DNA of 35,330 nucleotides from Verrucomicrobiota bacterium (GTDB taxonomy: Bacteria; Verrucomicrobiota; Kiritimatiellia; CAIQIC01; JAGNIJ01), in assembly GCA_018823105.1 (NCBI GenBank), contig JAHJJH010000019.1:1-35330 (forward strand), given 5' to 3'. The translations under genes and the position numbers were made by a program. Positions 1,115 through 35,103 of this stretch are shown here, in pieces (the first letter of the stretch is position 1; each line of letters opens with the position of its first letter). The notes beneath the pieces were generated by a model. It had not been told where the DNA came from. It did no database searches and saw only the letters and a list, made by a program, of their open reading frames with translations.

Positions 1115-3343
1115 ATGACCAATGGCGAACGTGGCGTAGAGGGCGGGGAGGTCATTAGTGTTCTCCCTCAGGGTGTTGCCCCCGCCCGGTGGACCCCGCG
1201 CGTTGGTCCTGAGACAACTGAACTCTTGATAAACATACGTCTTTCCGAGGAGAACCAGCTCCGAATTCGGGACGAGGGGGTAGCTATACTCTCTCGCTGC
1301 GTCCCCCCCACTCAACTGTCCGGGCAGCAGACCGGCCTCGTAGTGGGCTACATCCAGAGCGGCAAGACACTGTCTTTCACGACAGTGGCAGCCCTTGCGC
1401 GGGACAACTCATATCCCTTGGTCATTGTGATTGCAGGGACTTCGGTCCCGCTCTCAGGGCAATCGGTTCGTCGTCTGCACCATGACCTTCGTCTCGATTC
1501 TCGGCCGGATCACGTCTGGCAGCACATCCACAACCCTCAAGTTGAAGGGGACGACCACGGACGAATTTCCAGCGTTCTCGCCGAATGGAAGGATCCTCAT
1601 GTTCCGCAGGAAGAGCGAAGAACAGCTCTTATCACCGTGATGAAGCACCACGGCCACTTGAACCATCTAATCGAGGTCCTCCGACGCCTGAACCTGCAAG
1701 GCGTTCCGGTGCTGATCGTGGATGATGAGGCAGATCAGGCTGGCCTGAACAATTTGATCCAGGAGGGTGACGAGAGCACGACCTATCAAAGACTCTGCAT
1801 GCTGAAGGAAGTAGTCCCTCACCACACTTTTCTTCAGTACACGGCGACGCCACAGGGCCCCCTCCTTATTAACCTGATTGATGTTCTCTCGCCGGGCTTT
1901 GCTGTGCCGTTGACCCCGGGAAATGAATACACGGGCGGGAGTATTTTCTTCCACGACGGGAGTCCTTACATTCGAGAGATTCCGCCCAATCAGATCCCAA
2001 CTCGCGACCATCCACTGCCTGAACCTCCAGAGAGTCTTCTGGCCGCCCTTCGATTCTTCTTTGTTGGCGTCGCTTCCGGCCTGATCCGTGATCATGGCTG
2101 GGGTCATCGATCTATGATGATTCACCCGTCCCAGCGAACAGTCGGTCACACGCAATACTATGCTTGGGTAGCGGAGATCCGCGACACGTGGATTCGAATC
2201 CTCGGACACCCCGGTGATCAGGACTGCCACGAATTGATAGAGGACTTTCGCCCTGCCTACAACGATCTCGCCACAACAGTGCGCGATCTGGAACCGTGGG
2301 AGGCGATCAACGCGCACCTGCTTCGAGCCATCCGCACGACCGAACCGCATCTGGTGAATGCAAAGAGGGGACGCACCCCCGAGGTTAATTGGAGCAGTGC
2401 ATACTCCCACATACTGGTCGGTGGACAAGTCCTCGACCGTGGATTCACTGTAGAGGGCCTCACCGTAACGTACATGCCAAGAGGTCTCGGCACTCGCAGG
2501 GCGGACACTATCCAGCAGCGTGCTCGCTTCTTCGGCTACAAACGGCCCTATCTGCCATACTGCCGCATCTATCTTGAGCCTCAAGTGGAAGATGCACTCC
2601 GCCGCTACGTAGAGCATGAAGAGGATGTGCGCGGGCGCCTCGAAGAGAACTCCAGAACAGGCCGACCTTTGTCTGAGCTTCGCAGAGCCTTCCTGCTCAC
2701 GCGGTCTCTCGAACCGACAAGAGACAGCATCATTGACGTTGACTTTGTACGCGTCAACCTAGACGAAGGCTGGTCTGCGCCGAAAGCGCCACATGAATCA
2801 GCCGAATTCATCCGCTCAAACCGGGCGCTTGTGGAAGCGTTTCTAGATTCGCTTCGGCTTGTTCCGCTCGAGGGGCATCCAGAGCGCACCGAATTCCAAA
2901 TCCACGATGTCGCACGTAGCGTGCTGCTTCAGGAGGCCTACGAACGACTTCTCGCGGACATTCGGTATGCCCGGCTGAGCGACGCGCAGAACTACCTCGG
3001 CGTTCAAGTAATTCTTCGCCGTTATTTTGAGGAACACCCCGAGGCTACGTGCTCTGTGTATAGAATGAGCGGCGGTCGAACTCGCGAAAGAAAACTCAAC
3101 GACGACGGCAACATACCGAATCTGTTTCAAGGTGCCTACCCTGTCGAGCGCGCACGAAGAGGGCAGATATACCCAGGAGATCGAGAGATTCATGATCCAA
3201 ACGCGGTGAGCATTCAGTTGCATACTCTTGCAATTCCGGCGGAACTCGGAGTTCACCCCGCGTATCAAGGTGTGCCCGCTCTCGCGATCTGGATACCAAG
3301 AGATGCCACCGGGGACGTGATTGTCCAAGATCAGGGAGGATAG
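1115..3343 (+). CDS. Z1 domain-containing ATPase (helicase-like)
   Basis: This 742-residue protein has the hallmarks of the Z1 superfamily, P-loop ATPases related to superfamily 2 helicases that travel with MutL-like ATPases and nucleases. A Walker A motif GYIQSGKT is at residues 78-85. A Walker B motif VLIVDDEAD is at 199-207, and a motif III-like YTATPQ is at 242-247. Further on are GGQVLDRGFTVEGL and an arginine-finger-type DTIQQRARFFGYKR segment. The ATG at 1115 is preceded by GAGG about ten bases upstream, a weak ribosome site. The gene lies 28 bases after the ATPase gene and 10 bases before the nuclease gene, so co-transcription is very likely. By analogy it should couple ATP hydrolysis to remodelling or sensing of DNA or of the partner nuclease. 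The family assignment is firm; the molecular role is inference. Confidence 0.9.
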   Translation: MTNGERGVEGGEVISVLPQGVAPARWTPRVGPETTELLINIRLSEENQLRIRDEGVAILSRCVPPTQLSGQQTGLVVGYIQSGKTLSFTTVAALARDNSYPLVIVIAGTSVPLSGQSVRRLHHDLRLDSRPDHVWQHIHNPQVEGDDHGRISSVLAEWKDPHVPQEERRTALITVMKHHGHLNHLIEVLRRLNLQGVPVLIVDDEADQAGLNNLIQEGDESTTYQRLCMLKEVVPHHTFLQYTATPQGPLLINLIDVLSPGFAVPLTPGNEYTGGSIFFHDGSPYIREIPPNQIPTRDHPLPEPPESLLAALRFFFVGVASGLIRDHGWGHRSMMIHPSQRTVGHTQYYAWVAEIRDTWIRILGHPGDQDCHELIEDFRPAYNDLATTVRDLEPWEAINAHLLRAIRTTEPHLVNAKRGRTPEVNWSSAYSHILVGGQVLDRGFTVEGLTVTYMPRGLGTRRADTIQQRARFFGYKRPYLPYCRIYLEPQVEDALRRYVEHEEDVRGRLEENSRTGRPLSELRRAFLLTRSLEPTRDSIIDVDFVRVNLDEGWSAPKAPHESAEFIRSNRALVEAFLDSLRLVPLEGHPERTEFQIHDVARSVLLQEAYERLLADIRYARLSDAQNYLGVQVILRRYFEEHPEATCSVYRMSGGRTRERKLNDDGNIPNLFQGAYPVERARRGQIYPGDREIHDPNAVSIQLHTLAIPAELGVHPAYQGVPALAIWIPRDATGDVIVQDQGG

Positions 3344-3353
3344 GAAGAAGCCG

Positions 3354-4358
3354 ATGAACAGTCATTTGCCGCCTCTGTTTCGGACGCTCACGGCACCAGG
3401 ACCCAACTCTGGAACCGGCCTTACCCTTAACGGTGTGGTCTTTCCCGTCAGCGCTGATTTCCACTTGGGCAAGGATGAGCAGGGCCGCCCCGTCGTTGTC
3501 ATTCGTGTGCCCAGTCCCACCGCGGTGGGTCTCCCACCTGTTGAATTGGAGAACCTGAGAGTAGACCACCTCGCTCATTGCCGCATTCTTCAGGCTTCAG
3601 GAAGAGAGATCGAAGACAAGTTCTCGGTCATACGATGCCTGAGCTATGACCACAGCCTTCAGGAGTACTTCCTGAACACCATGGAGGAGATCGCCACTGC
3701 CTTGGCCCCCCGTATCACTGCGGCGACGATCTCTTCAGCAATTCATAAGTTGGCCGAGCTCTTCCAAGCCCTCACTCGTCCGCCATCGCGTCCGCTTCAA
3801 GGTTTGTGGGCCGAACTCTTCGTCATCAGATCCTCAAGGGACCAATCTCGCCTGTTGCGCGCATGGCATTCGGAGGCAGAAGAGAGATTCGATTTCGGCC
3901 TCGACGATCAGCGCCTTGAAACGAAATGTTCGAGCACCAGAGACCGGCGCCACCATTTCTCACTGGAGCAAGCTCAACCAAGCGCTGGGCTCCACGTGCT
4001 AATTGCATCTCTGTTCGTGGAGGGTCAGACCAACGGCCTCACCCTCGGAAGACTTTGGGATGAGATACGTGATTTCGCAGGCGGAGAGACAGAACTCGCG
4101 ATGAAGATTGAGCGCGTCTGCTGCAGTGCTCTGGGGGCCTCATGGAACAAAGCGCGAGAGAAGGCGTTTGATGAGAAGCTGGCGAGGGAATCCCTTGCCT
4201 TCTACGACGCCGCCGATATTCCACGCGTATCGAGAGCCCAGCCCATGGGAGTAACGGATATCCGTTTCTGTTCCGACCTCTCGCGCGTCAAGCCAATCAA
4301 TATCAAGGAGTTTGAGAATGACGGGTCGCTCTTCGCGGCTTGCCCGCTCGTCAGGTAG
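3354..4358 (+). CDS. PD-(D/E)XK motif nuclease, DUF4420-like
   Basis: This 334-residue protein belongs to the PD-(D/E)XK family (Pfam DUF4420, PF14390) that sits beside Z1 proteins. The nuclease core is visible: GLWAELFVI with Glu154, then FDF with Asp180, then LETKC with the Glu189-x-Lys191 pair, followed by HHFSLEQ. These fit the E...D...ExK metal-binding layout. An upstream TTG at 3321 is open in frame, but the ATG at 3354 is preferred. It follows the Z1 stop by ten bases and has a purine-rich GGAGG/GGAAG stretch just upstream. The 3' end overlaps the next gene by 41 bases, which suggests translational coupling. It is probably the DNA-cleaving or nicking effector of the cassette. The family is well supported; substrate and trigger are unknown. 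Confidence 0.85.
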   Translation: MNSHLPPLFRTLTAPGPNSGTGLTLNGVVFPVSADFHLGKDEQGRPVVVIRVPSPTAVGLPPVELENLRVDHLAHCRILQASGREIEDKFSVIRCLSYDHSLQEYFLNTMEEIATALAPRITAATISSAIHKLAELFQALTRPPSRPLQGLWAELFVIRSSRDQSRLLRAWHSEAEERFDFGLDDQRLETKCSSTRDRRHHFSLEQAQPSAGLHVLIASLFVEGQTNGLTLGRLWDEIRDFAGGETELAMKIERVCCSALGASWNKAREKAFDEKLARESLAFYDAADIPRVSRAQPMGVTDIRFCSDLSRVKPINIKEFENDGSLFAACPLVR

Positions 4359-4827
4359 TGCACGCTTAGGGAAAACCGAAAAATCGGTATCGCCGAGTTT
4401 CAGTCCATACCGCGCAACTTCTCGACAAGCATCTTTAACAAAGCAGAAGAACCGTAGCAAAAACACCAAGGCCGAACTTCTGCTTCGTCAGCACATACGG
4501 GGCTTTGGCCTCCATTACCGCATTTGCGCTCAATTCCTACCCGGCAGGCCGGACCTTGTTTTCCCAAGTGCGAAAGTCGTGGTGTTCTGCGATGGCGATT
4601 TCTGGCATGGGCGGCATTGGAGACGATTAAAGGCGAATCTCTTGAAGGGAACCAATGCAACGTATTGGGTGGCCAAGATACAGGCAAATATCATCCGCGA
4701 TCGCCGCCAGGCAGGGCTCTTGAGACGAATGGGATGGCGTGTCTTACGTTTTTGGGAAACAGACGTCCTTCGTAATCCCGACGAAATGGCACGGAAGGTC
4801 AAGAGAGCCGTCTGCAGAAATGTGTAG
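4318..4827 (+). CDS. Vsr-like (very short patch repair type) endonuclease
   Basis: The 169-residue product has the Vsr fold signature. After a basic N-terminal extension comes KNTKAELLLRQH, then PGRPDLVF with the candidate catalytic Asp79, then FCDGDFWHGRH with His97 and His100, then a helix ending NIIRDRR, then GWRVLRFWETDVL. The ATG at 4318 has AAGGAG seven bases upstream and lies inside the nuclease gene, giving a 41-base overlap. A TTG two codons earlier is less likely. In E. coli Vsr, cysteines in HGCFWH, HHC and WEC bind a structural zinc. Here those positions are Asp, Trp and Thr, so the zinc site appears to be missing. Stand-alone Vsr nicks T:G mismatches beside a Dcm methylase, but no methylase is visible in the window. 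A role in the defence cassette is therefore at least as likely. Confidence 0.85.
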   Translation: MTGRSSRLARSSGSARLGKTEKSVSPSFSPYRATSRQASLTKQKNRSKNTKAELLLRQHIRGFGLHYRICAQFLPGRPDLVFPSAKVVVFCDGDFWHGRHWRRLKANLLKGTNATYWVAKIQANIIRDRRQAGLLRRMGWRVLRFWETDVLRNPDEMARKVKRAVCRNV

Positions 4828-18401: not shown

Positions 18402-19530
<1,129 letters not shown>

Positions 19531-19558
19531 GTGTCAGGTGTCGGGTGTCAGGTGTCAG
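19531..19558. repeat. Heptanucleotide repeat, four units of GTGTCAG
   Basis: Four head-to-tail 7-mers, GTGTCAG, GTGTCGG, GTGTCAG and GTGTCAG, start on the base after the gap stop codon. The reverse complement CTGACAC also occurs in the repeat at 25921-25948. It fills part of the 102-base gap-pgk spacer. Confidence 0.9.
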
Positions 19559-22213: not shown

Positions 22214-24028
22214 GTGAAAGCGCCGGCGCCAACACCCTCCCGAGTACGTTCCGGGGGGGTGGTTTGTTTCTGGGCCGGCCTTGCTGTGGCACTTCTGTTC
22301 CCGGCCCTGGTCCTTCTGATTTCCGCCTGCGGTGAGCGTTCGCCCTCGACCGCGGAAAATATTTGGCACGGTCAGACGGCACGTATCCGGACTTTTGATC
22401 CGGCGCGCGCCGCGGACGTCGCCTCCGCACAGGCCGTCAGCCGCGTCTATGAAGGGCTTTTGCAGTACGCCTATCTTGATCGCCCTTACCGGGTGGAGCC
22501 GTTGCTGGCCGAGGCCCTGCCTGAGATCTCGCCGGATGGATTGATCTACACGTTCCGAATCCGGCGCGGCCTCTACTTCCAGGACGATCCTTGCTTCGTG
22601 GCGTCGGGGGGCAAGGGGCGCGAACTGGAGGCGGAGGATTTTGTCTATTCCATCAAACGCCTGGCGGATCGCAAGACGGCCTCTTCGGGGTACTGGATTT
22701 TCCGGGACCGGATCCTGGGCCTCGACGATTTCCGGGCCGCCTCGGATGGCGTTGAAGCCACCGACTATGCCCGGCCCGTAGAGGGGCTGTACGCGCCCGA
22801 CCCGCACACGCTGCAAATCCGGCTGACCCGGCCCTATCCGCAACTGGCCTGGGTGCTCACGATGCCTTATGCCGCGGCGGTTCCGCGTGAGGCCGTGGAA
22901 TCTTACGGCCGCGAGTTTGATCGGCATCCCGTCGGCACCGGCCCGTTCATCCTGGCCTCCTGGCGGCCGAATCACCATGTGGAATTCGTCCGCAATCCCA
23001 AGTGGGCCGAGACGGGCCGCGTGGAGCGACATCCTGCTGCGGACGCGTCCATTCCGCTGGTGGATCGCGTGATGCTCTATGTCATTGGCGACCCGGCGAC
23101 GGCCTGGCTGATGTTCCTGGACGGGCGCCTGGAGATTTCCGGGATCTCACGCGACAACTGGGACGCTGTTTTCGGCGGCGGCCGCGAACTGGGCGCGGAG
23201 TTGACGGCGAAGGATATCCAGTGGGTTCGCGCGTCTACGCTGGACCTTTACTATATCGGTTTCAACATGGACGATCCCGTGGTAGGGCCGAATCGCCGGC
23301 TGCGGCAGGCGCTGACGCGCGCCTTCAACTCCGAAGAGTGGGCCCGGTTTTATAACGGGCGGGTGGTGCGGCCCAACGGCCCCATTCCTCCCGGTGTGGT
23401 CGGCGCCCCCGACGGCCCGGGGCCGTTTCCCTTCGACCTGGAGCACGCGCGCCGCTTGCTGGCCGAGGCCGGCTATCCGGACGGCCGCGATCCGCAAACG
23501 GGCCGGCGTCTCGTCCTGACGCTGGACCTCGGACAGGCGGATAATCCGGAGATGCGCCAATCCACGGATCTGTTCATCCAGTTTATGGACCGGTTGGGGG
23601 TGGTCATCGAACCGCGATACAACAACTGGCCGACGTTCCTGGGCCGGATCGAGCGGCGCCAGGTTCAACTGTTCCGCTTGAGTTGGATCGCCGACTACCC
23701 CGACGCGGAGAATTTCCTGCAGCTCTTCTACAGCCCCAATACCTCGCCGGGTTCCAACCGGAGCAACTACCGGAATCCGGAATTCGACCGGCTTTATGAA
23801 GTCGCGCGCGGCCTGCCGGATTCGAACGAGCGGACGGAGTTGTACCGTCGGATGGCCGCGATCATTCAGGAGGACTGTCCCTGGATCTTCACGCACCACC
23901 CCACGGCCTATGTGCTTCTCCAGCCGTGGGCGTGCCATTATAAATACCACGACTTCCCGTACGGCATGGAAAAATACTATGCTGTTTCACGAAGAACACT
24001 GAACACCGAACACAGAACACTTCCATGA
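22214..24028 (+). CDS. Peptide ABC transporter substrate-binding lipoprotein (SBP family 5), first of two
   Basis: This 604-residue extracytoplasmic solute-binding protein is of the DppA/OppA family. The start is a GTG at 22214; no ATG alternative fits the signal peptide. A hydrophobic stretch ends in a lipobox ISAC with Cys39, so it is probably a lipoprotein. Family-5 features include FDPARAADVASAQAVSRVYE near residue 60 and LEAEDFVYSIKRLAD. The stretches VGTGPFILASW, FNMDDPV, RQALTRAFNSEEWARF and SWIADYPDAENFLQLFY follow. The last residues, RRTLNTEHRTLP, are encoded by a heptamer repeat (23994-24021) and look like an added tail. The stop overlaps the next start (ATGA). It is first in a transporter operon and follows secG by 13 bases. 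The ligand is probably oligopeptides; this is inference. Confidence 0.92.
   Translation: MKAPAPTPSRVRSGGVVCFWAGLAVALLFPALVLLISACGERSPSTAENIWHGQTARIRTFDPARAADVASAQAVSRVYEGLLQYAYLDRPYRVEPLLAEALPEISPDGLIYTFRIRRGLYFQDDPCFVASGGKGRELEAEDFVYSIKRLADRKTASSGYWIFRDRILGLDDFRAASDGVEATDYARPVEGLYAPDPHTLQIRLTRPYPQLAWVLTMPYAAAVPREAVESYGREFDRHPVGTGPFILASWRPNHHVEFVRNPKWAETGRVERHPAADASIPLVDRVMLYVIGDPATAWLMFLDGRLEISGISRDNWDAVFGGGRELGAELTAKDIQWVRASTLDLYYIGFNMDDPVVGPNRRLRQALTRAFNSEEWARFYNGRVVRPNGPIPPGVVGAPDGPGPFPFDLEHARRLLAEAGYPDGRDPQTGRRLVLTLDLGQADNPEMRQSTDLFIQFMDRLGVVIEPRYNNWPTFLGRIERRQVQLFRLSWIADYPDAENFLQLFYSPNTSPGSNRSNYRNPEFDRLYEVARGLPDSNERTELYRRMAAIIQEDCPWIFTHHPTAYVLLQPWACHYKYHDFPYGMEKYYAVSRRTLNTEHRTLP
23994..24021. 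repeat. Heptanucleotide repeat, four units of GAACACN, coding
   Basis: The units GAACACT, GAACACC, GAACACA and GAACACT lie head-to-tail within the final codons of the first binding-protein gene and end four bases before the next start codon. They encode the RTLNTEHRT tail. Confidence 0.9.
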
Positions 24029-25860
24029 AAAAGCTCTTGCTGCTGGGCCTTCTCCTCCTGACCTCCATCCCCGGGGTCCGAGCGGCCGACGAGATGTTCC
24101 CCCGCGAAGGCTGGAAGGAGGCTGCCAATCCGCTCGCCTACCCGGAAGCCCGGCCCGGCGGGGAAATCGCCATTTACGCGGGGGATTATCCGAAGAGCTT
24201 CAATTATTACCTGGACCAGAATGTCTTTTCCGCCGAATTGTTCGGTGCGATGTACGAGTCGTTGCTGGGCCAGCACCCCCTGACGCTGGACTATGAGCCC
24301 GGACTGGCCGAGCGGTGGTCCATCTCGGAAGACAAGCGCACCTTCACCTTTTGGCTCGATCCCCGCGCGAAATGGAGCGACGGCCGGCCCGTTACAGCGG
24401 AGGATGTGAAGTGGACGTTTGACGCCGTTATGAAACCGGAAAACATCACCGGACCGCATAAAATCTATCTCAGCCGGTTTGAAACGCCCGAAGTGCTCGA
24501 CGAGCGGACCATCCGCTTCCACGCGAAGGAGATCCATTGGCAGAACCTGGATGCCCTGGCGTCCTACCAGATCCTGCCCCGCCATGCGTTTGCCGAGGCC
24601 GATTTCAACAAGATCAATTTCGAGTTCCCGGTCGTTTCTGGATCCTACCGGCTGGGCGAAATCCAGGAAGGCGTGCTGGCCAAGCTGGAACGGCGCGCCG
24701 ACTGGTGGAACCGCGATTCCATCCGTTCGCGGAGCGTCGGGAACTTCCAGACCCTTGTCTTTAAATTTTTTGCAGAGCGGGACAACGCCTTCGAGGCGTT
24801 CAAGAAGGGCGCGATTGACCTGTTCCCCGTGTACACCGCACACCTCTGGGCCACCCAGACCGAGGGCGAGCGGTATGACAGGAACTGGGTGATCAAGCAG
24901 CGGATTTTCAACTACAATCCCGTGGGATTTCAGGGTTTCGCCATGAACGGCCGGCGGCCGCCGTTCGACGACGTTCACGTTCGCCGTGCCCTGGCGCACC
25001 TGCTGGACCGCGAGAAGATGAACGCCACCCTGATGCATAACCAGTATTTTCTGCACCGCTCCTACTATGAGGATCTCTACAGCGCGGAGCGCCCGTGCAA
25101 GAACGAGTTGGTCGAATTCGACAAGGACCGCGCGCGCAAGTCGCTGGCCGAGGCGGGGTGGACGGTTAATCCGAAGAGCGGCTTGCTGGAAAAGGACGGG
25201 CAGCCCTTCCGTTTCCGGTTTCTTTCCCGCGACGCGGCGACGGACAAGTTCCTCGTCATCTACAAAGAGGCCCTCAAGGACGCGGGCATCGAAATGCTTA
25301 TCGAGAAAAAGGATTGGGCCGCATGGGCCAAGGACATGGACGAATTCAACTTCGACATGACCTGGGCCGCCTGGAGCGGGGGCCTGCGGAAGGATCCCGA
25401 GCCCATGTGGTCTTCCGTCGAGGCGGACAAGCGATCCGGCCAGAACATCACCGGATTCCGCAACGACGAAGTGGATGCCTTGATCGCCGCGCAACGCGAA
25501 AACTTTGATATCCAGCAGCGCCACGAACTGTGCCGGCGGATTGACCGCATCTTGACGGCCGAGTTCCCCTACATCCTGCTGTGGAACATCAACTATACCC
25601 GGCTGCTCTATTGGAACAAGTTCGGCGTCCCGCCGACCGTGCTCGGCAAATACGGCGACGAGCGCGCGGCCTACTGGTACTGGTGGTATGATGAGGACGT
25701 CGCCGCTGAACTGAAGGACGCCATGAACGAGGGGTTGCCTCTGCCGCGCAAGCCGGCGGCAGTGCGGTTTGATGAGGTGTTCCAGACAAAATCTGAACAA
25801 CGAACGCCCAACATCCAACGCCCAACGGCCAAGGAATCCGAAGAACCTGAAGGAGAATAA
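24025..25860 (+). CDS. Peptide ABC transporter substrate-binding protein (YejA-like), second of two
   Basis: This 611-residue periplasmic binding protein has a Sec signal peptide, MKKLLLLGLLLLTSIPGVRA, cut before ADEM. The mature part follows the family-5/YejA pattern: YPKSFNYYLDQNVFSAELFG, YEPGLAERWSISEDKRTFTF, WSDGRPVTAEDVKWTFDA and SYQILPRHAF. Later come FDDVHVRRALAHLLDREKMN and TWAAWSGGLRKDPEPMWSS. The start codon overlaps the previous stop (ATGA), showing translational coupling. The final residues (SEQRTPNIQRPTAKESEE and a short end) come from a heptamer repeat at 25799-25833 and are not family-conserved. Two binding proteins in one operon suggest a split ligand range or a second docking partner. 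Ligand is inferred as peptides. Confidence 0.92.
   Translation: MKKLLLLGLLLLTSIPGVRAADEMFPREGWKEAANPLAYPEARPGGEIAIYAGDYPKSFNYYLDQNVFSAELFGAMYESLLGQHPLTLDYEPGLAERWSISEDKRTFTFWLDPRAKWSDGRPVTAEDVKWTFDAVMKPENITGPHKIYLSRFETPEVLDERTIRFHAKEIHWQNLDALASYQILPRHAFAEADFNKINFEFPVVSGSYRLGEIQEGVLAKLERRADWWNRDSIRSRSVGNFQTLVFKFFAERDNAFEAFKKGAIDLFPVYTAHLWATQTEGERYDRNWVIKQRIFNYNPVGFQGFAMNGRRPPFDDVHVRRALAHLLDREKMNATLMHNQYFLHRSYYEDLYSAERPCKNELVEFDKDRARKSLAEAGWTVNPKSGLLEKDGQPFRFRFLSRDAATDKFLVIYKEALKDAGIEMLIEKKDWAAWAKDMDEFNFDMTWAAWSGGLRKDPEPMWSSVEADKRSGQNITGFRNDEVDALIAAQRENFDIQQRHELCRRIDRILTAEFPYILLWNINYTRLLYWNKFGVPPTVLGKYGDERAAYWYWWYDEDVAAELKDAMNEGLPLPRKPAAVRFDEVFQTKSEQRTPNIQRPTAKESEEPEGE
25799..25833. repeat. Heptanucleotide repeat, five units of (R)NCCAAC type, coding
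   Basis: The units AACGAAC, GCCCAAC, ATCCAAC, GCCCAAC and GGCCAAG follow each other and encode the tail of the second binding protein. The three central units fit best. Confidence 0.8.
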
Positions 25861-25890: not shown

Positions 25891-25948
25891 GACAACGACG
25901 AGGACGAGAATGCGGATTGTCCTGAACCTTGACACCTGAACCCTGACA
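25891..25948. repeat. Compound repeat: GAC/GAG triplets then four heptamers
   Basis: A six-triplet GAC/AAC/GAG stretch (25891-25908), similar to 9976-10023, is followed by heptamers CCTGAAC, CTTGACA, CCTGAAC and CCTGACA at 25921-25948. Nearly all of the 96-base spacer between the second binding protein and the YejB-like gene is simple repeat. It ends eight bases before that start codon, so repeat length could affect translation initiation. Confidence 0.85.
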
Positions 25949-25956
25949 CCTTCCCC

Positions 25957-27003
25957 ATGGACCGCCTCAACTATTTTCTCCGCCGCTTGCTGCTCATGGT
26001 GCCCACATTCATCGGGATCACCTTTTTCAGCTTCGGCCTGTGCCAGTTCGTGCCGGGCGGGCCCATCGAGCAGGTGATCCTCCAGATGCGCGGGGTAGGG
26101 GGGGGCGCGGGCGACCGCATGTCCTCCGCGGCGGGCCCCATCACCGAGGAACAGCGCAAGGCCCTGGAGAAGCATTTCGGATTTGATAAGCCCTTGCCGG
26201 AGCGGTACTGGAAGTGGCTGGTGCGCGACCGCATTGGCCTGGCCGTGGAGTCCTACAAGTATCCGAACAAGACGGTCTGGCAGCTGATCAAGGCCCGCTT
26301 TCCAGTGTCGCTGGTGTTCGGCGTGACGGGATTTGTGCTGACGTACCTGGTCTGCATCCCGCTGGGTATCGCCAAGGCCTTGCGGCACGGCAGCGCGTTC
26401 GACCTCGCCTCCAGCGCGATTGTTTTCATCGGCTATGCCATACCCCCGTTCGCCTTCGGCATGGTGTTGAAGGTGCTCTTCAGCGGCGTCACGGAAACCT
26501 TTTGGGACATCTTTCCCGTCGCCGGGTTCCATTCGCCGGATTTTGCGGCGCTGGGATTCGGGGCGAAGATCAAGGATCTCTTCCTGCACATGTTCCTGCC
26601 GGTGCTCTGCTACATGGTCGGGAACTTTGCCGTGCTCACGCTGCTGATGAAAAACTCGTTGCTGGAGCAGATCGGGCAGGATTACATCCGGACCGTCCTG
26701 GCCCGGGGCGCCACCCGCGCCCGCGCCATCTGGGGCCACGCCTTTCGCAACGCGCTCATCCCCATCGCCACCGGGTTCGGCGGCATCCTGACGATCATGT
26801 TCGCGGGCTCCGTGCTCATCGAGCGCGTGTTCGAAATCCCCGGCATGGGCCGCCTGAGCCTGGATGCCATCGTCAGCCGCGACTACATGGTCTTCATGGG
26901 GATTCTCTCGTTGACTGCAATCCTGGGAATGCTCGGGCGCCTGCTCTCCGATTTCTGCTACCTCCTGATTGACCCCCGCATCACGTTTCGGAACCAGGGA
27001 TGA
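25957..27003 (+). CDS. Peptide ABC transporter permease, YejB/DppB-like
   Basis: This 348-residue inner-membrane permease has an N-terminal helix starting NYFLRRLLLMVPTFIGITFF, a periplasmic segment to about residue 110, and five further helices. The EAA-type coupling loop reads DYIRTVLARGATRARAIWGH, with the family-conserved G after ARGA. The YejB-like features are FVPGGPIEQ near residue 33 and the long first loop. A run of eight G residues at 26098-26105 lies in the coding part for VGGGAG. The ATG at 25957 is preceded mainly by simple repeats, with no clear Shine-Dalgarno. The stop overlaps the next start (ATGA). It pairs with the following permease to form the channel. Confidence 0.95.
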   Translation: MDRLNYFLRRLLLMVPTFIGITFFSFGLCQFVPGGPIEQVILQMRGVGGGAGDRMSSAAGPITEEQRKALEKHFGFDKPLPERYWKWLVRDRIGLAVESYKYPNKTVWQLIKARFPVSLVFGVTGFVLTYLVCIPLGIAKALRHGSAFDLASSAIVFIGYAIPPFAFGMVLKVLFSGVTETFWDIFPVAGFHSPDFAALGFGAKIKDLFLHMFLPVLCYMVGNFAVLTLLMKNSLLEQIGQDYIRTVLARGATRARAIWGHAFRNALIPIATGFGGILTIMFAGSVLIERVFEIPGMGRLSLDAIVSRDYMVFMGILSLTAILGMLGRLLSDFCYLLIDPRITFRNQG

Positions 27004-34145: not shown

Positions 34146-34607
34146 ATGAAAGACCGATGGTCGATTGCTTGGGTCATGGCGTGTCTGTTGCCGGCACTGC
34201 TGTTCTTGGCTGCTTGTGACGGTGGAGGAGGGAGCAGCACCACTACTGTGGTTGTCACCAATACCGTGAACGGTCAACCCGTGGTCGTTACCAATACGAT
34301 CACCCCGCCGGAACCACAAACGCTTCAGGATCGCACATACAGCGTTCCGGCCGGCGCCACGGTTATGTCGGATGCAGAGACAGCCCCGGACGATGGGACC
34401 ATGTTCGCCACGGTGGATTGGAGTGGTGGTGGACAACTTCAGGCTGATTTATTTCGGAATGGAGCCGCTGTGGCTGCACAACTGGATAATTCACCACTGA
34501 ATATTTCGGCAGTGACAGATGACGGGCAAACATGGACTGTCAGAATCATAAATAGTACGCCGGATAATAAGAACGTGAATATCACGATCCGGTATGCGCC
34601 TGAATGA
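34146..34607 (+). CDS. Small lipoprotein, first of a tandem pair
   Basis: The 153-residue product has a signal peptide with a lipobox LAAC (MKDRWSIAWVMACLLPALLF, then LAAC with Cys24), followed by DGGGGSS. A Thr/Val-rich linker contains two copies of a VVVTNT motif (VVVTNTVNGQPVVVTNT) and leads to TPPEPQ. A beta-rich domain of about 100 residues follows, ending NVNITIRYAPE, which recalls pre-peptidase C-terminal (PPC) folds. An AAGGAGG is placed five bases before the ATG, one of the strongest ribosome sites in the window, suggesting high expression. No function is recognised. The outer-membrane or surface location is inference from the lipobox. The downstream gene is a close paralogue. Confidence 0.8.
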   Translation: MKDRWSIAWVMACLLPALLFLAACDGGGGSSTTTVVVTNTVNGQPVVVTNTITPPEPQTLQDRTYSVPAGATVMSDAETAPDDGTMFATVDWSGGGQLQADLFRNGAAVAAQLDNSPLNISAVTDDGQTWTVRIINSTPDNKNVNITIRYAPE

Positions 34608-34635
34608 TGTGTATGAGATACGGAGGAGAATAACA

Positions 34636-35103
34636 ATGAAACTGAAAATTTTCGGATGGCTGTACGTAGCGTGTCTTCTGCCTGTGATGCTGTTTCTCGT
34701 GGCGTGCGATGACGGCGGGGGAGGCGGCACGCAGGTGGTGGTTGTAACCAACATCGTGGACGGACAAGTCGTGGTCGTTACTAATACGGTCACCCCCCCG
34801 GAGCCGCAGAACCTTTATAACAGCACTTTGAGCGTGCCCGACGGGGGTGCGAATATCACAACCGATGCTGTGACCGCTCCGGATGACGGGACCATAACCG
34901 CCGTGGCGGATTGGAGTGGAGGGGGTGCGCTTCATGTAAGGCTTCTGCGGAACGGCGTCGCCCAGACGGGCGCTATTGACGAATCCCCGATCACGATGAC
35001 GGCTGGGACAGACGATGGGATCAACTGGGTTGTCAGGCTTGACAATGATAGTTCGCCGGGAGCGAAGAACGTCCATGTGACCATCGGATACTTGCCGGAG
35101 TAA
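34636..35103 (+). CDS. Small lipoprotein, second of a tandem pair
   Basis: This 155-residue paralogue of the preceding gene has the same plan. The signal peptide ends in lipobox LVAC, then DDGGGGG, then the linker VVTNIVDGQVVVVTNTVTPP, then a PPC-like beta domain with TAPDDGTITAVADWSGGG and a final NVHVTIGYLPE. The ATG at 34636 follows GGAGGAG by seven bases; an in-frame ATG at 34594 would overlap the first gene. It starts 28 bases after the first lipoprotein and is followed by an intrinsic terminator. The two form a two-gene operon from local duplication. Function is unknown; the linker repeats could be structural. Confidence 0.8.
   Translation: MKLKIFGWLYVACLLPVMLFLVACDDGGGGGTQVVVVTNIVDGQVVVVTNTVTPPEPQNLYNSTLSVPDGGANITTDAVTAPDDGTITAVADWSGGGALHVRLLRNGVAQTGAIDESPITMTAGTDDGINWVVRLDNDSSPGAKNVHVTIGYLPE

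Follow-up and report, generated by a model that had tools for sequence, protein, structure and literature searches.

The window analysed here is a stretch of 35,330 nucleotides from contig JAHJJH010000019.1 of a metagenome-assembled Verrucomicrobiota genome (GCA_018823105.1, here G000; 3.56 Mb in 356 contigs), whose closest relatives are Kiritimatiellia. It contains two adjacent genes, SBP1 and SBP2, for oligopeptide-type ATP-binding cassette (ABC) substrate-binding proteins, each of which runs near its 3′ end through a short tandem array of a 7-nucleotide unit (array 1 and array 2). An earlier note on this DNA had proposed that these heptamers supply the C-terminal tails of both proteins, and that gain or loss of units might vary the tails. 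Below we describe the arrays and the tails, and show that arrays of this kind are a genome-wide feature of gene junctions, not one peculiar to the two binding-protein genes.

The gene order across the region is gap, PGK, TIM, SecG, two oligopeptide-type binding proteins, two permeases and two ATPases. The first four are what we take these open reading frames (ORFs) to encode, judging by their sequences, and the permease and ATPase names rest on NCBIfam matches below the curated cut-offs. Genes were called with a simple codon-usage finder of our own writing that rewards a Shine-Dalgarno sequence when choosing a start; for SBP1, it favours position 22286 over 22214. The genomes used for comparison include one from the same genus (G001), one from the same family (G002) and one from the same order (G005).

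Repeat-encoded tails of the two binding proteins

Both proteins pass the curated cut-off of PF00496 (32.4 bits) with scores of 231.7 bits for SBP1 and 236 bits for SBP2. The matches span residues 94-510 and 90-465, respectively, and thus both tails lie well beyond the conserved folds, as the earlier note had stated. Tandem Repeats Finder describes array 1 (23994-24021) as 4.0 copies of a period-7 repeat with 85% match and array 2 (25803-25832) as 4.3 copies of the same period with 78% match; a lag-7 scan widens array 2 to 25795-25832. Three lag-7 arrays with a score of at least 10 are present in the window, compared with a mean of 0.07 and a maximum of 1 in 30 first-order Markov resamplings.

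Read in frame, array 1 would yield the peptide RTLNTEHRTL of SBP1, and array 2 the peptide EQRTPNIQRPTAK of SBP2. The proposal that heptamers encode the tails holds for residues 594-603 of SBP1 and 591-603 of SBP2, but not for the rest of the 24 extra residues of SBP2, only about 13 of which are array-derived. The ATGA at 24025-24028 does join the two genes as proposed. SBP1 reaches this overlap because of the base found at the variable position of its array: the two units that have this base in frame read AGA, whereas most units that lead into start codons (start-side units) read TGA there (among 122 units counted, the variable base is T in 100, C in 17, G in 4 and A in 1). Both tails are predicted to be disordered, with AlphaFold pLDDT values (predicted local distance difference test) below 50 at SBP1 ORF residues 594-604 (residues 570-580 of a model that begins 24 residues into the ORF) and at SBP2 residues 588-611.

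The tails were compared across relatives, as the earlier note had suggested, and no conservation across species was seen. In G001, SBP1 ends in EDPEP and SBP2 in a different, longer tail. The comparison covered 61 loci with an SBP2 homologue, a set in which at least one genome occurs twice; two of them run off their contig. Of the other 59, 58 have their C-terminus −4 to +14 residues from residue 587, and the sole exception is G001, at +40. SBP2 of the window extends 24 residues past this point, and the G001 extension consists of different residues, although downstream of array 2 the two genomes still use a common frame with a few residues alike (AK....P.GE).

Homologues of SBP1 were matched at E ≤ 1e-60 in 44 of the 56 genomes searched (the source genome counted). 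A loose V/I-D...R..W pattern follows KYY in 16 of 31 loci (the source genome and G001 included), G002 and G005 among them, and about half of the relatives stop soon after KYY or KYW without it. Given that the pattern is present in G002 and G005 and absent from both the source genome and G001, array 1 appears to have replaced an older SBP1 C-terminus in the genus rather than simply having been added to it.

Table 1. Binding-protein genes, junction features and heptamer arrays in the window
Feature	Position	Strand	Basis
Stop-side G-rich array AGGTGTC after gap (GAPDH), overlapping the gap TAG stop; no array above threshold in G001	19529..19558	+	Tandem Repeats Finder, lag-7 scan
SBP1, first oligopeptide-type ABC substrate-binding protein gene (SBP_bac_5), 604 aa	22214..24028	+	ORF list; PF00496, E 1.9e-68
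Array 1, GAACACN x4, C-rich-sense start-side type; residues 594-603 of SBP1; 3-4 nt before SBP2 ATG	23994..24021	+	Tandem Repeats Finder, lag-7 scan
ATGA stop/start overlap of SBP1 and SBP2; no counterpart in G001	24025..24028	+	Sequence, G001 junction comparison
SBP2, second oligopeptide-type ABC substrate-binding protein gene (SBP_bac_5), 611 aa	24025..25860	+	ORF list; PF00496, E 9.2e-70
Array 2, degenerate CCAACGY type; residues 591-603 of SBP2	25795..25832	+	Lag-7 scan; class also elsewhere in source genome and G001
Start-side array CCTGAAC/CCTGACA between SBP2 and DppB-like permease; 5 nt before permease ATG	25921..25951	+	Tandem Repeats Finder
DppB/YejB-like permease gene, 3′ of the CCTGAAC/CCTGACA array	25957..27003	+	NCBIfam matches below curated cut-offs

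The array at 25921-25951 was called with a period of 14 but is built of related 7-mers; at the same junction, G001 has a few CCTGAAY-type copies below the array threshold. Elsewhere in the window, two small ORFs at 34146-34607 and 34594-35103 resemble tandem paralogues, with similar lipoprotein-like starts (LLPALLFLAACDGGGG and LLPVMLFLVACDDGGGG). A 742-aa ORF with a GYIQSGKT motif, presumably a Z1-type ATPase-like protein, is accompanied by ORFs that we assume from their sequences to be PD-(D/E)XK-like (3321-4358) and Vsr-like (4312-4827), and this group (1115-4827) is possibly a restriction or defence cluster.

Strand-ordered arrays at gene junctions

Searches of both strands for three consecutive units recovered related arrays throughout the source genome and G001. 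GAACACN (at most one mismatch) gave 29 overlapping matches on 17 contigs of the source genome, and none with the pattern written backwards. CTGAACC (at most two mismatches) gave 25 in the source genome and 17 in G001, with backwards controls of 7 and 0; GTGAATA (at most three mismatches) gave 39 and 21 overlapping matches, with a control of 0; and CCAACGC gave 16 and 8, with controls of 4 and 1. The degenerate pattern YSAAMNN was found in 55 of 56 relatives, with a very uneven excess over its control, which was equal or higher in several genomes. Period 7 is also favoured in sampled sequence: arrays that touch intergenic DNA number 9 at lag 7 versus 2 each at lags 6 and 8 in 350 kb of the source genome, and 5 versus 1 and 0 in 344 kb of G001, with one low-complexity array in each set. 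The units seen are GAACACN, CCTGAAC, GTGAATR, CCAACGY and related heptamers; TAACTGA is not among them, though it was not searched for as a pattern.

Sampled and pattern-found loci of the two genomes were pooled, giving 64 array-bearing junctions, 58 of which are codirectional (with 77 arrays); across the samples, 396 of 517 gene pairs are codirectional (Fisher p 0.01). From the same loci, 62 distinct arrays were examined for position, and nine lie inside called ORFs: three at 3′ ends (arrays 1 and 2 and one at locus L116), three no more than 20 nt from a called start, which possibly reflect mis-called starts, and three in the interior, comprising two GC-rich runs and one array in a doubtful ORF.

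At the 58 codirectional junctions, the arrays show strand polarity. All 33 arrays that are G-rich on the sense strand lie closer to the stop codon than to the start, whereas C-rich-sense arrays are divided between start (23) and stop (21; Fisher 1e-7). Removal of weakly skewed arrays and of five arrays inside the called downstream gene leaves this pattern in place (G-type, 28 of 28 at the stop; C-type, 22 at the start and 18 at the stop). Because both strands were searched, the orientation was not pre-selected. Where both types share a junction, the G-rich array precedes the C-rich array in 15 of 15 cases; one further junction has two C arrays and another has two G arrays. Spacers of at least 60 nt that lack arrays (81 in the source genome, 77 in G001) have little G/C skew, either near stops (0.002 and 0.05) or near starts (0.08 and 0.05). 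Many sites in one genome, concentration at gene junctions and strand polarity are characteristics that these arrays share with intergenic heptamer tandem repeats of the TAACTGA/GGGNATC type.

The stop codon of the gene is overlapped by 14 of the 20 GTGAATR arrays on the stop side, by 11 of them in the identical register (A/G)AG-TGA, and all 20 close the three reading frames. NTG codons occur in 31 of 33 G-type arrays compared with only 3 of 44 C-type arrays. By eye, no GTGAATR array contains the four or more GGG runs expected of a G-quadruplex, and such runs are not a general feature of the arrays, although some stop-side arrays of the complement of CTGAAC do contain GGG runs.

On the start side, 24 genes have a C-type array no more than 20 nt from the start. 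A Shine-Dalgarno-like word is present in only 2 of them, compared with 254 of 543 genes overall, a scarcity that is partly definitional because the array itself takes up that position. Predicted folding of the region from −35 to +25 is weak in these genes (median −3.3 kcal/mol, n = 24, versus −13.9 kcal/mol in 533 other genes; p 3e-13). When the 24 arrays are altered in silico, the value is −5.2 kcal/mol for letter-shuffled and −12.1 kcal/mol for reverse-complemented versions, and reverse complementation raises the total count of NTG codons upstream of the start (34 nt in each of the 24 genes) from 5 to 54. We read the folding and NTG counts as a translational filter on where each orientation persists.

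We also considered whether the arrays generally form hairpins, and rejected this role for the genus because the two arrays of most such paired junctions are GTGAATR and CTGAAC, units that lack complementarity, although a few junctions hold complementary arrays as judged by eye. Other layouts occur in more distant relatives. At locus L233 of G002 (from 3282 onward), CGAACGC and GTTGGAC arrays lie between SBP1 and the DppB-like permease gene, with no SBP2 gene between them. In G005 (loci L394-L422, and L082 between SecG and SBP1), the arrays often form inverted pairs such as CGAACAT ... GTTCGATG, several with a short A-run before and a T-run after, and six of the eight junctions listed are between convergent genes. 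This layout suggests two-way terminators with heptamer stems.

Turnover of the arrays and the probable origin of the tails

The arrays differ between the source genome and G001. Among 52 orthologous codirectional junctions, arrays are present in both species at 8, in the source genome only at 10, in G001 only at 2 and in neither at 32, such that only one of the two species exceeds the array threshold at 12 of the 20 array-bearing junctions; the excess in the source genome is inflated because many of its loci were chosen for their arrays. Some G001 junctions retain sub-threshold remnants. By eye, the reading of an array has altered the C-terminus in 6 of the 20 array-bearing pairs, namely both binding proteins and the pairs L116/L290, L116/L347, L340/L121 and L020/L122 (source genome/G001). 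The stop codons of both G001 binding proteins fall inside short CCTGAAC-type repeats, and that of SBP1 is the TGA in a CCTGAAC/CCTGAAT repeat of two copies, located 17 nt upstream of the following start.

A palindrome of approximately 25-30 nt (CCGCCGNAGNCNYGGCGNAGGCGGG) is also found inside or beside arrays, by eye in 4 of 4 matches in G001, 3 of 5 in the source genome and 0 of 3 in G003 (loci L313, L353 and L356 of the source genome; L328, L347 and L349 of G001). It looks like a repetitive extragenic palindromic (REP)-type element that uses arrays as insertion sites. Y1_Tnp transposases (PF01797) number 11 in the source genome and 5 in G001, and a tie between them and the palindrome is only suggested.

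We consider it probable that the tails are by-products of short heptamer arrays that occupy gene junctions genome-wide in this Kiritimatiellia genus and are filtered by translation. Arrays would arise and turn over in spacers, most likely through slippage-like duplication, and translation would filter the position and orientation in which they persist. G-rich-sense units (GTGAATR and GGTGTCAG) would survive at the stop side, where GTGAATR supplies stops in all frames and often the stop of the gene itself. C-rich-sense units (CTGAAC, CTGACAC and the complement of GTGAATR) would lead into starts, occupying the Shine-Dalgarno position, and would be tolerated there because they are unfolded and almost free of start-like codons. 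Since seven is not a multiple of three, an array in frame would be best tolerated at the extreme 3′ end of a gene, as a stop codon or a short disordered tail. Array 1 would then be the start-side array of SBP2 that ate into the end of SBP1.

Several observations weigh against this interpretation or limit its reach. Ten classed arrays from other Kiritimatiellia loci (13 were found and three were dropped for weak skew) split 4, 3, 2 and 1 and show no polarity (p = 1), the SBP1/DppB junction of G002 runs from C-rich to G-rich, opposite to the order in the genus, the arrays of G005 are often inverted pairs between convergent genes, and G038 also has another layout. Class-wide polarity is thus rejected, and the rule holds at the level of the genus at best. 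Most array junctions came from pattern searches, the gene calls are home-made, and the Shine-Dalgarno reward of the gene finder may bias the comparison of starts. As only three of the nine arrays in ORFs are at 3′ ends, confinement to this position is a tendency, not a rule. Closure of all frames by GTGAATR arrays is weakened as a sign of selection by tandem arrays of letter-shuffled units, which reach a mean of 17.6 of 20, because a heptamer bearing TGA gives such stops almost free. Finally, the G001 repeats at both tail junctions are below the array threshold.

It is also conceivable, though in our estimation unlikely, that the arrays are functionless and owe their polarity to mutation bias linked to transcription or replication rather than to translational selection. 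The turnover between species and the many kinds of degenerate units across the class agree with such an origin, and the consulted sections of the report by Rehm et al. (PMC4692102) hypothesise slippage for other heptamers. However, a strand-linked bias alone would not set opposite orientations at the two ends of one spacer, as observed at 15 of 15 junctions, and array-free spacers lack the skew.

By analogy with TAACTGA repeats, the arrays could be recognised by a protein that binds RNA or DNA and thereby regulates how downstream genes are translated or coupled, a proposal that partly overlaps with the translational filter and that we judge improbable. Their strand- and position-specific placement is in its favour, as are the start-side position and missing Shine-Dalgarno sequence, which the consulted parts of PMC4679880 report for TAACTGA repeats. 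Nevertheless, no binding protein is known, sister species carry different units at the same junction, and 12 of 20 junctions exceed the threshold in a single species (own-only cases being inflated by locus choice).

The earlier note was right about the frame arithmetic. In silico, the addition of one unit to array 1 or the loss of two fuses SBP1 and SBP2 in frame into a protein of 1217 or 1210 aa, whereas the loss of one or the addition of two yields a 691- or 698-aa protein that stops 269 nt into the SBP2 gene. We nonetheless regard it as very unlikely that slippage reversibly toggles SBP1 among three forms, which would end in the short tail, in a long tail read out of frame or in a fusion to SBP2, even though the tails are unlike in the two species of the genus. 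Neither array is the long, pure repeat typical of phase-variable tracts, array 1 having only four impure units (85% match), and the change of frame on a change of units is seen in silico only. G001 has another unit at this site, not merely another number of units, and no ATGA overlap, so gaining or losing units would not by itself account for how the two genomes differ; a further genome from the source species was not found. Arrays also lie beside housekeeping genes (gap/PGK in the source genome and PGK/TIM in G001), and a fusion would presumably place a signal peptide internally. Of the earlier proposal, then, array-encoded and unconserved tails and the consequences of unit change are upheld, whereas phase variation is not supported; instead of an on/off switch, the arrays look like part of a repeat system that spans the genome and is ordered by strand.

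Least credible of all is that the tails are selected protein features such as linkers or recognition tags, for although the open frame is kept through both arrays and SBP2 is long-tailed in both species of the genus, the tail sequences are unconserved and predicted to be disordered, and 58 of 59 loci with an SBP2 homologue have no long tail.

Going further, the arrays may form a junction module in the genus, in which a stop-side array that closes all frames is followed by an unstructured, Shine-Dalgarno-free start-side array that acts as a ribosome landing site, and in which invasion of gene ends lets proteins gain, lose or swap C-termini. This extension is speculative, and we hold it to be possible but doubtful.

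Relation to known heptamer systems

Our searches of the ranked open-access literature surfaced no paper on heptamer arrays in Kiritimatiellia, but heptamers have been described in other bacteria, and the comparisons with PMC4679880, PMC4692102, PMC2700814 and PMC8262952 refer to the consulted sections of those papers. TAACTGA direct repeats of Beggiatoaceae, Cyanobacteria and Bacteroidetes (MacGregor, PMC4679880) lie just upstream of starts, mostly without a Shine-Dalgarno sequence, sometimes overlap upstream stops, and encode residues mostly at protein ends; they have been suggested as sites for an RNA- or DNA-binding protein. Both systems are mostly intergenic, oriented to a close downstream start, positioned at the Shine-Dalgarno site and carry stops in three frames. 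However, one unit is favoured there, whereas here several degenerate classes occur, with GTGAATR on the stop side ahead of a start-side array, and the start-side unit has only the CTGA core in common with TAACTGA (which rotates to CTGATAA).

The GGGNATC/GGGGAYT heptamers of Xanthomonas and Nostoc (Rehm et al., PMC4692102) are G-rich on the coding strand after stops and on the non-coding strand before starts. Most persist at shared gene junctions in two species, with varying length and sequence, and phase variation was judged unlikely. The arrays described here obey the same stop/start polarity, but those heptamers are capable of forming G-quadruplexes, whereas GTGAATR units do not each have a GGG run, and thus the polarity does not need GGG. 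In Geobacter metallireducens (PMC2700814), heptanucleotide arrays of four or five tandem units, including GGACCGG and the class 3 unit MTYCTGA, occur at many sites. Rotated to CTGAMTY, the latter is close to the start-side unit found in this genus. Unlike the present arrays, the Geobacter arrays were described as predicted regulatory elements or regulator sites, and the consulted sections describe no stop/start polarity for them.

Two further systems differ more strongly. The hmw1A promoter of Haemophilus influenzae (PMC8262952) has a 7-bp tandem repeat of 11-24 units with transcription changes and demonstrated phase variation, whereas arrays 1 and 2 have approximately four impure units. Repeats in the ORFs of Borg elements (PMC9879509) all have unit lengths divisible by three and create disordered segments. 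New disordered protein segments are likewise predicted here, but the unit is 7, and 9 of 62 arrays are in called ORFs, three of them at 3′ ends.

What the present arrays add to this work is a fixed succession of a stop-side and a start-side unit class, polarity that extends to units lacking a GGG run, a rationale based on folding and start codons, and worked cases of C-terminus replacement. Heptamer arrays span unrelated phyla, and the consulted sections of the main published accounts leave their function open. In the genus studied here, arrays built of several units follow a polarity resembling the one reported for G-quadruplex heptamers, even where the unit lacks a GGG run, and folding and start-codon counts offer a simple translational reason for it. 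The arrays of this genus also provide a concrete case of how non-triplet repeats can rewrite C-termini between sister species.

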